Shown in pieces: positions 17,425 to 20,259 of a stretch of DNA of 64,000 nt. The position numbers and the translations under genes are program-made. The notes under the pieces were generated by a model, which did no database searches, was not told the origin of the DNA, and saw only the letters and a program-made list of their open reading frames with translations. This stretch comes from Leisingera aquaemixtae (GTDB taxonomy: Bacteria > Pseudomonadota > Alphaproteobacteria > Rhodobacterales > Rhodobacteraceae), in NCBI RefSeq assembly GCF_001458395.1, contig NZ_CYSR01000010.1, positions 336,579-400,578 of the forward strand, read 5' to 3'. Every line of letters begins with the position of its first letter. Position 1 is the stretch's first letter.

Positions 17425-17574
17425 ATGCTGGAATATTCTGCTGATGCCGCCGTGAGGTCTGCCATGGCCCGCGCCCACGCCGAACGCGGTCAGGTGCTGA
17501 AACTGGCCTGGACATGGCTGTTGGGCAAGAAGCCGGTGCCCGCCCTCCGCCCCAAGGTTTCCCGCTGGGCCTGA
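17425..17574 (+). CDS. Small basic protein of 49 residues, unknown function
   Basis: ATG 17425 follows AAAGGAGG with ideal spacing, and the frame runs to TGA 17572. The product is Ala/Arg-rich at first (RSAMARAHAERGQVLKLAW), then has a tryptophan-rich hydrophobic patch (LAWTWLLGKK) and a basic tail. The AHAERG helix plus W-patch recalls short Rhodobacterales peptides that I cannot tie to a named family. The strong ribosome binding site and the position divergent from a LysR gene support a real gene. Confidence 0.65.
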   Translation: MLEYSADAAVRSAMARAHAERGQVLKLAWTWLLGKKPVPALRPKVSRWA

Positions 17575-17664
17575 GCGCGCTCTAATTCGAGAAAAGGTTC
17601 TTACGGGATAGGAAGAGGGTCGGCCTTGCGGGGCTGGCCCTTGCCGTTTCTGCCACGAGCCGCT

Positions 17665-17886
17665 TCAGCGGGAGGTCTGGTGGCGGATCAGCGGTTCGAT
17701 CCTGAGGTAGCGGCCCAGCTGCGCGTCCAGATGGCGCAAGGCGTCCGGGCTGGCAGACACCAGCACCCGCTCCCGGGCAGGCGGGCTGAGCAGCGTGAGC
17801 CCGTCAATGTCTTCCAGCTGGCTCTGCCAGTTCTGCGGCAGCTCCTCCCGCATCGTGCGCTTTACCGCAATCACATAATCGGCCAT
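17665..17886 (-). CDS. Small protein resembling a stand-alone subtilase prodomain/inhibitor
   Basis: 73 residues starting MADYVIAVKRTMREELP. ATG 17886 follows GGAGG and lies 16 bases past the subtilase stop. The predicted order strand, helix, strand, helix, strand is that of I9-type prodomains. Its C-terminal part (VLVSASPDALRHLDAQL to IEPLIRH) aligns without gaps to residues about 53-81 of the adjacent subtilase (VILEGTPAEMIALDAAT to VEPLILH), with 10 identities in 29 positions by my count. That similarity suggests an intramolecular-chaperone or inhibitor role acting in trans (inference). No known family name is assigned. Confidence 0.75.
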   Translation of the reverse strand: MADYVIAVKRTMREELPQNWQSQLEDIDGLTLLSPPARERVLVSASPDALRHLDAQLGRYLRIEPLIRHQTSR

Positions 17887-17902
17887 CGGCCCGGCCTCCG
17901 CT

Positions 17903-19393
17903 TCAGCTTCGGGGCATTCCGTGCCCTTCATATATGGCAGCAAGACCGATCGTCCTGCAAATTTCGCGCAGCCGGTGGCGGGCGAGGTCGCTGCGGAAGA
18001 TATTGCGCGGCATCGCAAGGTAAGACGCATCTTCCGCCAGCACCCGCGCCAGCACGCCGCAGGCCACCGGTGTCGCCATCGAGGTGCCGTCGAGCGCCGC
18101 ATAAGGCGCGGCGAGCCCGTGCCGGGCCGGGACCGGCGCGATGATGCCGACCCCCGGCGCGATGGCGTCGATTTCCGGTCCGAAGCAGGAGAAGCGGGCG
18201 AAGTAGAACCCGTCAAGGCCGAACAGCTCCGGCTGATCCGGCAACTGGCCGCCGGAAACGGAGTCCTCCGGCGCGGTGCCCAGCTTGCCCGCGGCGGAAA
18301 CCGCGGCGGTTTCCGGCAGGGCGGCGGGGAAATGCACGAACTCAAAGGAATTGGCGGCGGCGCACAGGCACAGCGTGCCGCGCTCGGCGGCGTCCTGCAC
18401 CGCATCCTGGACCACCTCGGATTTGACCGGCGCGCCCAGCGACAGGTTGATCAGATCCGCGCCCGCGCGGCTGAGGCTGTCGATTGCATCGGCAATGTCG
18501 ATATTCGCGGCGCCTTCGCCGGGCGGGAACACCCGGGCCGTGTGCAGCTCAACGCCGGGCGCGATGCCGCCATGCACCAGCACCTCCCCCGGGCGCCCGG
18601 CGATGGTGCCGGCCACATGGGTGCCATGCACATCCGCATCCGCCCCGCCATCGGGGTCGTGGATGCCGAGGATAAAGGCGCCATGATCGGTGCCCTGAAG
18701 ATGCGGATGCGGGCCCAGCCCGGTGTCGATGACGCCTACCCTGATGCCTGCGCCTGCGTCCGGCGCGAAACTGCTGATGCCGCTGGCGTGATGCCACCAG
18801 TCCAGCCGCCGGTTGCCCGGCAGCTTGCTGCAGACCACCGTGGTCTTCTGCCCCGAGACTTGCGCCCATCGCGCCCAGAAACCTGCATAGGGTTTGACGA
18901 TGGCGGCCAGGGGCTGAAAGGCCAGGTTGCTCGGGAAGGCGGCGACCCCGTCTGCCCCGGTGCGGGCCTCCTCCCGCATCACCTCGCCATCCAGGCGCCG
19001 CAGGAACAAAATGACGGTGGCCTGCGCCAGCGGCGCGCCGCCGCCGCGCACATGGAACTCCAGCGGCGCGGCGCCTGCGGGCGCGGCCCGCATCAGCCCC
19101 GCCAGCGGCACCCGGGCGTGTTTGAACATAGAGAGCGCGCCCTCGCGCTCGTGCAGGATCAGCGGCTCGACGATCACGTCGCTGGAGGTGGCCGCATCCA
19201 GCGCAATCATCTCGGCCGGGGTGCCTTCGAGGATCACACTGCGCCGGGCCAGATCATCGGCCGGGCGGGATTCAGAGCGGATATGGGCGGTGGCGGGCAG
19301 CACCGTCAGCGCCTCGGCCAGCGCCGCGCGCGAGGCGGTCTTTTCGGCGTCCTGGAATTTGCCGGCGCGCCGGTTAGACATCACGAATTGCAT
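17903..19393 (-). CDS. S8 family serine peptidase (subtilase) with prodomain-like and TTR-like N-terminal domains
   Basis: 496 residues, no signal peptide. Residues 1-90 resemble a prodomain ending VEPLILH; residues about 105-180 look like a transthyretin-like beta sandwich (GGGAPLAQATVILFLRRLDG, TGADGVAAFP); residues about 215-485 are the S8 catalytic domain with Asp223 in VGVIDTG, His256 in HGTHVAG, the oxyanion Asn348 and Ser438 in DGTSMATP. All catalytic residues are intact. ATG 19393 suits AAGGAGGG better than the in-frame GTG at 19402. The 73-residue gene 16 bases downstream shares the prodomain-like pattern. Whether it acts in the cytoplasm or is exported by a non-Sec route cannot be seen. 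Confidence 0.9.
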   Translation of the reverse strand: MQFVMSNRRAGKFQDAEKTASRAALAEALTVLPATAHIRSESRPADDLARRSVILEGTPAEMIALDAATSSDVIVEPLILHEREGALSMFKHARVPLAGLMRAAPAGAAPLEFHVRGGGAPLAQATVILFLRRLDGEVMREEARTGADGVAAFPSNLAFQPLAAIVKPYAGFWARWAQVSGQKTTVVCSKLPGNRRLDWWHHASGISSFAPDAGAGIRVGVIDTGLGPHPHLQGTDHGAFILGIHDPDGGADADVHGTHVAGTIAGRPGEVLVHGGIAPGVELHTARVFPPGEGAANIDIADAIDSLSRAGADLINLSLGAPVKSEVVQDAVQDAAERGTLCLCAAANSFEFVHFPAALPETAAVSAAGKLGTAPEDSVSGGQLPDQPELFGLDGFYFARFSCFGPEIDAIAPGVGIIAPVPARHGLAAPYAALDGTSMATPVACGVLARVLAEDASYLAMPRNIFRSDLARHRLREICRTIGLAAIYEGHGMPRS

Positions 19394-19488
19394 GATCTGC
19401 ACTCCCTCCTTGCTGCACGTATGAGGATAGTGCTTTTCGCGCCCGCAACCAGTTGCGGTTCAAGGCAGTTGCCGCCGCCTAAGCAGGG

Positions 19489-19518
19489 GCCCGCACCCCG
19501 CCGGGGCGGGGTGCGGGC
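19489..19518 (-). terminator. Long hairpin downstream of phaB
   Basis: A 12-bp perfect stem (GCCCGCACCCCG at 19489 with CGGGGTGCGGGC at 19507) and 6-base loop start 19 bases past the phaB stop. No T-run follows, so it may terminate weakly or protect the 3' end. A second short dyad, CCGCAAC-CA-GTTGCGG, lies at 19443-19458. Confidence 0.5.
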
Positions 19519-19536
19519 TGTCATCGGTTCAGCGTG

Positions 19537-20259
19537 TCAGACGAAGAACTGCGCGCCGTTGGCGGAGATGGTCGAGCCGTTGATGAAGCCCGACTCGTCA
19601 GACGCCAGGAAGGCCACGCAGCGGGCGATCTCTTCCGGCTCGCCCAGGCGGCCGGCCGGGATCTGGGCAATGATCGATTCCCGCACCTTCTCCGGCACTG
19701 CCATCACCATTTCGGTGGCGATATAGCCGGGGCAGACCGCGTTGGCGGTGATGCCGGCGCGGGCGCCTTCCTGCGCCAGCGATTTCACGATGCCCAGGTC
19801 GCCTGCCTTGGTCGCGGCATAGTTCACCTGCGCGAACTGGCCCTTCTGGCCGTTGATTGAGGAGATCACGATGACGCGGCCGAACTTGCGCTCGCGCATG
19901 CCCGGCCAGACCGGGTGAACGGTGTTGAACACGCCTGTCAGGTTGGTGTCGATCACTTCCTGCCACTGCTGCGGCGTCATCTTGTGGAAGGGCGCGTCGC
20001 GGGTGATGCCGGCGTTGGCCACAACGATGTCGATCGGGCCCATTTCCTCTTCGACCTTGGCGATGCCGGCGGCGCTTTCCTCGTAGCTGCCAACATTCCA
20101 TTTGTAGGTCTTGATGCCGGTTTCGTCGGTGAATTTCGCCGCGGCTTCGTCATTGCCGGCATAGGTCGCGGCCACATTGCAGCCCTGCGCCTTCAGCGCC
20201 TGGGAAATTGCTGCGCCGATGCCGCGGGAACCGCCGGTGACGAGTGCAGTACGTGCCAT
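19537..20259 (-). CDS. phaB: Acetoacetyl-CoA reductase PhaB
   Basis: PhaB reduces acetoacetyl-CoA to (R)-3-hydroxybutyryl-CoA with NADPH in polyhydroxybutyrate synthesis. The 240-residue short-chain dehydrogenase has the TGGSRGIG cofactor loop, NAGITRD, the catalytic Ser of ISSINGQKGQ, and YAATKAG with the Tyr and Lys; SINGQKGQFGQ-like sequence is typical of PhaB. GGAGG precedes the ATG. It lies 193 bases downstream of phaA, after a terminator and two palindromes, so it may have its own promoter. phaC is not in the window. Confidence 0.96.
   Translation of the reverse strand: MARTALVTGGSRGIGAAISQALKAQGCNVAATYAGNDEAAAKFTDETGIKTYKWNVGSYEESAAGIAKVEEEMGPIDIVVANAGITRDAPFHKMTPQQWQEVIDTNLTGVFNTVHPVWPGMRERKFGRVIVISSINGQKGQFAQVNYAATKAGDLGIVKSLAQEGARAGITANAVCPGYIATEMVMAVPEKVRESIIAQIPAGRLGEPEEIARCVAFLASDESGFINGSTISANGAQFFV

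Follow-up and report, generated by a model that had tools for sequence, protein, structure and literature searches.

Organisation of the locus

Within a 64,000-nucleotide stretch of the Leisingera aquaemixtae genome (NCBI RefSeq assembly GCF_001458395.1, contig NZ_CYSR01000010.1, positions 336,579 to 400,578; the whole stretch is called the window, and unprefixed positions refer to it), a gene for a subtilase is followed directly by a gene for a 73-residue protein that resembles the N-terminus of the protease. Both reading frames lie on the minus strand where a preliminary description of this DNA had placed them, and the gap of 16 bases between them was borne out:

17651 to 19536: segment with exactly the two genes, missing from three genomes of the same genus (homology breakpoints)
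17903 to 19393, minus strand: subtilase (S8) gene, 496 residues (open reading frame, ORF; PF00082 match; no apparent signal peptide)
17665 to 17886, minus strand: small gene, stand-alone propeptide-like protein of 73 residues (ORF; GGAGG; AlphaFold2; Foldseek/VIA)

The subtilase gene starts with ATG at 19393 and ends with the stop codon at 17905-17903; upstream of it lie a Shine-Dalgarno-like AGGAGGGAG at 19403-19411 and, ahead of the ATG, an in-frame GTG at 19402. The small gene runs from an ATG at 17886 to a stop codon ending at 17665, with a Shine-Dalgarno-like GGAGG at 17895-17899 in the gap before it. A search for a sigma-70-like promoter at the pair found none, and the only terminator-like sites (two) fall inside the subtilase gene. 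The neighbours of the pair are a PhaB-like short-chain dehydrogenase/reductase (SDR) gene, a DUF1127-like ORF and a LysR regulator gene.

The subtilase keeps its own N-terminal domain

The subtilase is a peptidase of family S8 (PF00082, 108.4 bits against a cut-off of 21.8, E = 5.6e-31) and is the single S8 match in the window's own genome at E 0.001. It divides into three domains:

19154 to 19393, minus strand: N-terminal propeptide-like domain, residues 1-80 (model; profile homology; superposition)
18824 to 19066, minus strand: beta-sandwich (transthyretin, TTR-like) domain, residues ~110-190 (model; Pfam matches of relatives)
17906 to 18808, minus strand: S8 catalytic domain, residues ~196-496 (Pfam; invariant residues; fold match to subtilisins)
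18725 to 18727, minus strand: Asp223, invariant in 8/8 aligned relatives
18626 to 18628, minus strand: His256, likewise invariant in 8/8
18350 to 18352, minus strand: Asn348, likewise invariant in 8/8
18080 to 18082, minus strand: Ser438, likewise invariant in 8/8

As in other subtilases, D223, H256 and S438 are taken to form the catalytic triad and N348 to serve the oxyanion hole. In the model the N-domain has the order strand-helix-strand-strand-helix-strand and superposes on the propeptide of pro-subtilisin E, within one overall alignment of the two proteins. The TTR-like domain that had been proposed previously appears in the model as a seven-stranded sandwich at residues 111-188, whilst Pfam gives no match for it in the window protein; sub-threshold matches to CarboxypepD_reg were obtained in two relatives (E = 0.0056 and 0.027). 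Family databases place the protein no more narrowly: NCBIfam returns seven matches below cut-off (the best, mycosin, at 101.7 bits where the cut-off is 278.75), and PADLOC names it merely 'subtilase' (E = 4.1e-22). In agreement with the preliminary description there is no apparent signal peptide, the highest Kyte-Doolittle mean over 19 residues being 0.93 within the first 60 residues; since it lacks a hydrophobic N-terminal stretch, the subtilase is probably cytoplasmic.

The small protein is homologous to the N-domain of the subtilase

The likeness between the small protein and the subtilase N-terminus, on which the preliminary description had been built, holds up: the Smith-Waterman score of 54 exceeds the mean of shuffled sequences (25.2) at z = 6.1 and is reached by 0/1000 shuffles, in a local alignment of residues 36-70 of the small protein with residues 48-82 of the subtilase. 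Counted by eye, the V...H stretch contains 10 identities in 30 columns, with (I/V)EPLIxH common to both proteins. In relatives of the pair (loci numbered with L), the same comparison of each small protein with its own protease gave z = 5.8 for L106 (0/1000 shuffles) and z = 3.8 for L003 (4/1000).

Comparison of profiles by hhalign is far more decisive. Five small proteins set against five N-domains score 43.0 (E = 7.2e-8), a value reached by 0/200 column shuffles (maximum 14.5) and compared with 9.8 for the reversed profile. A second set, consisting of eight partners encoded upstream of their subtilases and seven N-domains, scores 69 (E = 1.8e-12, 0/100 shuffles). A hidden Markov model (HMM) of these eight upstream partners retrieves subtilases of the family unaided (best E = 7.9e-9), and every match to a subtilase ORF with a domain E <1 is confined to residues 39-190. 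The small protein itself matches no Pfam, NCBIfam or PADLOC family.

Within the partners, Glu64 of the small protein is invariant in two alignments (10/10 and 6/6 sequences). Setting the I-E-P motif against V-E-E-D, the corresponding motif of the BPN' propeptide, we read Glu64 as the counterpart of Glu69 in that propeptide; this equivalence is drawn by motif rather than from a computed alignment. In passages of PMC6993865, the residues of that propeptide described as helix-capping are Glu69 and Asp71. The small gene also shows codon-position constraint: between the window and L106, conservation at codon positions 1, 2 and 3 is 0.56, 0.60 and 0.33.

Predicted structures

AlphaFold2 predicts the topology of a propeptide for the small protein (predicted local distance difference test score, pLDDT, 85.7), as the proposal of a stand-alone prodomain had demanded. 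When this model was compared with the PDB by Foldseek and VIA, the top matches were subtilisin propeptides (BPN' prosegment) and the inhibitor POIA1, whilst two partner profiles, searched by sequence against solved structures, each returned one chance match (E = 1.5 and 0.31). In a model of the subtilase and the small protein joined as a single chain, superposition indicates that it is the protease's own prodomain that occupies the canonical site. The 6-residue linker may constrain the placement of the second prodomain copy and, because the protease's own prodomain appears to hold the canonical site, this model is silent on where the small protein binds.

Amongst the Foldseek matches is also ORF2 (3wqb_B, E = 0.12), and this match bears on the main rival of an inhibitor: a trans-acting folding chaperone that folds or stabilises the protease as ORF2 does for the Aeromonas protease ASP, with inhibition as a side effect. 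Passages of PMC5638518 describe ASP as active only with ORF2, which is encoded just downstream and also inhibits the protease. A second folding aid would be less needed at the present locus because the protease, unlike ASP as described, keeps an N-domain that is modelled in the propeptide position; we regard a dedicated chaperone as unlikely, albeit the strongest competitor.

The pair is present or absent as one unit

In all three further genomes of the genus that were examined (G238, G491 and G569), the PhaB-like SDR gene and the LysR gene adjoin and the pair is missing. Homology with their loci (L110-L112) ends at 19537 (19539 in L111), at the SDR stop codon, and restarts at 17650 or 17651, such that the window holds an extra segment of ~1,886 bases where the relatives hold ~15 different bases. 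In another genus, the pair of genome G403 follows this SDR gene and is itself followed by a LysR gene. In a sample of 390 genomes of the order, only the window's genome and G403 give strong matches to the window-type small gene, at E = 6.7e-32 and 9.7e-31 and in each case next to the subtilase; five further matches are weak (E = 0.005-0.009) and span just 23-41 positions. The subtilase gene and the small gene are one unit, present or absent together in the genomes compared.

Two further elements were observed around this segment. A long G+C-rich hairpin at 19490-19519, between the SDR gene and the subtilase, lies within the part missing from the same-genus relatives; it has no T-run and is not listed as a terminator. 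Outside the segment, on the plus strand at 17425-17574 and divergent from the LysR gene, is the 49-residue DUF1127-like ORF; it is kept in the three same-genus genomes with 67-79% identity.

Spread of the family and types of partner

A scan of genome contigs with the window protein alone as query gave no match, and no relative was found in phage records at E 1e-20. In genome samples, relatives of the protease are present in 5/394 genomes of the bacterial family at E 1e-30, and at E 1e-60 in 10/390 genomes of the order and 4/385 of the class; these samples are not disjoint, and the window's genome is part of each count. A protease profile separates 96 loci into 28 of the family (264-707 bits, window included) and 68 other subtilases (<=199 bits). 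Five plasmid loci (356-665 bits; taken from five of eight records, three further Agrobacterium records being left out) bring the family to 33 loci; also left out were 14 loci that repeat or widen others and the scraps L008-L010 (E = 0.004-0.008). Since most family loci come from the best 80 matches of the contig scan, the locus counts are not frequencies, and because L106 and L109 share one genome and several others are close kin, the loci are not independent.

An adjacent small propeptide-like ORF was found at 23/33 of the family loci examined. The partner is of the window type at six loci (window, L003, L020, L025, L106, L109), of a type termed g2 at four (L006, L018, L019, L116), of type g3 at four (L107, L115, L118, L119) and of the upstream type at eight (L026, L029-L034, L055), whilst the partner of L005 was assigned by eye alone. 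It lies upstream of the subtilase at 9 of the 23 loci and downstream in the window. Weak profile matches link the types (g2 to g3, E = 0.0032; g3 to upstream, E = 0.0014; core to g3, E = 0.015; core to g2, E = 0.19); the other links of g2 and g3 to the remaining partners are gene position and an order of structural elements read by eye. The I-E-P motif was not seen by eye in g2 or g3 sequences, and prodomain homology was obtained for two of the four types.

Partner loci come from Acidobacteriota, Pseudomonadota and Actinomycetota, with taxa such as Bryobacteraceae (L025), Bradyrhizobium (L026), Massilia agilis (L029), Methylocystis (L032) and Planobispora siamensis (L033). Around the 68 other subtilases, no ORF on the same strand matches the three partner HMMs at E 0.01, and one ORF on the opposite strand does (L073, E = 0.0034). 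These HMMs (for the types other than g3) were built from the partners that they retrieve, except that of L109, and so their matches to partners hold by construction save for L109.

Two loci carry additional subtilase sequences. L109:385-2201 is a second copy of the pair in the L106 genome, its subtilase broken into three reading-frame pieces and its partner intact; at L012:14375-15763 an extra subtilase-like ORF lies a few kb off the family subtilase, behind a regulator-like gene.

Weighing the proposed trans-acting propeptide

Taken together, the small protein is most likely a trans-acting propeptide that inhibits, or helps to fold, a zymogen that keeps its own prodomain. We favour this reading because the small protein is homologous to the N-domain and has a predicted propeptide fold, because Glu64 is invariant and the pair comes and goes as a unit, because the small gene shows codon-position constraint and the protease lacks a hydrophobic N-terminus, and because known stand-alone propeptides are inhibitors.

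Several observations weigh against it. Neither the small protein nor the subtilase N-domain matches Pfam I9, and none of the 10 partners in alignment set A3 does so even at E 10. The g2 and g3 partners have no significant homology to the N-domain (17/100 and 8/100 shuffles). The preliminary description had staked the pairing on the gene standing next to orthologous subtilases: it is present at the closest relatives (L020, L106, L109, L025 and L003) but is not universal, with no recognisable partner at 10/33 loci (L004, L021, L022, L023, L024, L027, L028, L035, L108, L117). L027 has a 98-residue ORF at the subtilase stop, a possible partner left out of the count, and in 5/10 of these loci (L004, L021, L022, L023, L035) the subtilase N-domain is still matched by a partner HMM. 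Finally, the own-pair test is weak for L020 (z = 2.0, 51/1000 shuffles) and L025 (z = 0.4, 309/1000), so that the likeness of single pairs is sometimes unconvincing. The profile comparison settles this doubt, and the small protein is homologous to the subtilase N-domain.

The same weak single-pair values would suit a chance or vestigial ORF, i.e. a decayed and functionless duplicate of the prodomain. Such an ORF would not be expected to adjoin relatives in other families and phyla, to show codon-position constraint behind its own ribosome-binding-like site, or to give partners that are closer to each other than to their own prodomains (window to L106, 138 versus 54), and we hold this explanation to be highly improbable.

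Neighbours of relatives as possible substrates

Genes adjoining the relatives offer candidates for what the protease might cut:

L026:2939-4024, L029:3340-4245, L030:225-1811, L031:3296-4294 and L032:2632-4317: Gly-rich repeat ORFs
L005:3544-4020, minus strand: similar Gly-rich repeat ORF (locus L013/L005)
L011:8731-14297, minus strand: APH-type kinase gene and HopA1-LanC fusion gene, directly upstream of the subtilase-partner pair

Gly-rich repeat proteins are encoded upstream of the pair at L026, L029, L030, L031, L032 and L034 (in pieces in L034). They contain recurring LPF motifs, several have QTLH-like C-termini, and the two checked against Pfam match no family; they have the appearance of multi-copy precursors and may be cleaved by the protease. 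The HopA1-LanC and APH-type kinase genes are parts of class V lanthipeptide pathways. A NucA-type nuclease gene follows the pair at L014 and L018, and on an Agrobacterium Ti plasmid (L118:1-8855) the subtilase and an 80-residue partner are followed by a trypsin-NucA nuclease fusion, with a CHAT-domain gene on the other strand ahead of the subtilase. At L004, L021, L022, L023 and L035, loci with no recognised partner, a small ORF lies ahead of the subtilase; its first half is acidic, and its second half is basic and contains Cys. These ORFs appear precursor-like by eye, and that of L021, the only one checked, matches no Pfam family.

The HopA1-LanC and APH genes, Gly-rich repeat proteins and nucleases beside relatives invite a further explanation: that the pair works as a peptidase for leaders or precursors, assisted by an accessory domain, and matures a peptide or activates an effector, the small protein presenting or recognising the substrate instead of inhibiting. 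Next to the window pair, however, stand only the SDR gene, the DUF1127-like ORF and the LysR gene: no precursor, effector or modification gene of the kind associated with a LanP-like leader peptidase of ribosomally synthesised and post-translationally modified peptides (RiPPs) adjoins it. The propeptide likeness of the partner would also be left unexplained, and we consider such a peptidase distinctly less probable than a chaperone.

Relation to known systems and proposed function

Stand-alone propeptides are known as inhibitors of subtilases, and SUB1-ProM is encoded adjacent to subtilase genes, according to passages in PMC6993865. The I9-type inhibitors (POIA1, yeast peptidase B inhibitor, Arabidopsis SPI-1, Plasmodium SUB1-ProM and TgMIC5) share with the window protein a small, separate product of propeptide fold beside or against a subtilase, and the structural searches with our model give POIA1 as one of their two best matches. 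These examples are eukaryotic, whereas the window pair is a bacterial bicistronic unit known from sequence and predicted fold, and its small protein differs from them in the missing I9 match. The Aeromonas ASP/ORF2 system is closer in arrangement, being a bacterial subtilase with a trans partner directly downstream, as across the 16-base gap of the window; ORF2 binds ASP at the catalytic site and inhibits it with a half-maximal inhibitory concentration (IC50) of 84.3 nM, as given in passages of PMC5638518. ASP is extracellular, and a paper cited there refers to it in its title as 'propeptide-deficient'; the window subtilase, by contrast, has its own N-domain and no apparent signal peptide. The peptidase/NucA conflict System 3 of Kaur et al. 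2020 couples trypsin, and sometimes S8, to NucA, as passages of PMC7159879 describe. The L014, L018 and L118 loci are alike in that the pair is followed by a NucA-type nuclease, whilst among the ORFs around the window pair there is neither a NucA-type nuclease nor a trypsin-like gene; the words 'propeptide' and 'prodomain' are absent from the main text of PMC7159879. Among the papers listed by searches of the open-licence PMC literature, none was found to treat, in its title or the opening lines of its abstract, a comparable bacterial subtilase paired with a free-standing prodomain gene. Inhibitors in the form of separate propeptides are already known, as is an external chaperone from bacteria (ASP/ORF2); what sets the present pair apart is the free copy beside a protease that keeps its own prodomain.

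We propose that the protease would be made as a zymogen, whose N-domain would aid folding, fill the active site and then be cut off. The 73-residue protein would bind the same protease surface in trans, with its short C-terminal tail after Glu64 placed in the substrate cleft like that of a cut propeptide. In this way the signal-less protease may be kept inactive inside the cytoplasm until the small protein is removed in its turn and, once freed, could process a substrate encoded elsewhere than next to the window pair. The preliminary description had raised the possibility of timed release, which, if true, would require removal of the inhibitor to be faster than that of the protease. That the two genes form a unit controlling a cytoplasmic protease, with the prodomain homologue as putative trans inhibitor, has in our judgement an even chance of being correct. 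A wider view is more tentative and rather doubtful: that the pair represents a bacterial module of wide occurrence, with a cytoplasmic zymogen protease and its prodomain both in cis and in trans, which serves as a safety catch on the proteolysis that frees membrane-active repeat peptides, lanthipeptides or NucA-type nucleases encoded alongside in several relatives, the window holding the catch and the protease without the target.

Protein inhibitors of peptidases are relatively sparse in prokaryotes, as stated in PMC6993865 where it treats them. A prodomain in cis together with a free copy, recurring in at least three phyla, would make it possible to ask, in a simple system of two genes, why the prodomain is needed twice, and the precursor-like, lanthipeptide-type or nuclease genes adjoining the relatives provide candidate substrates for these proteases.
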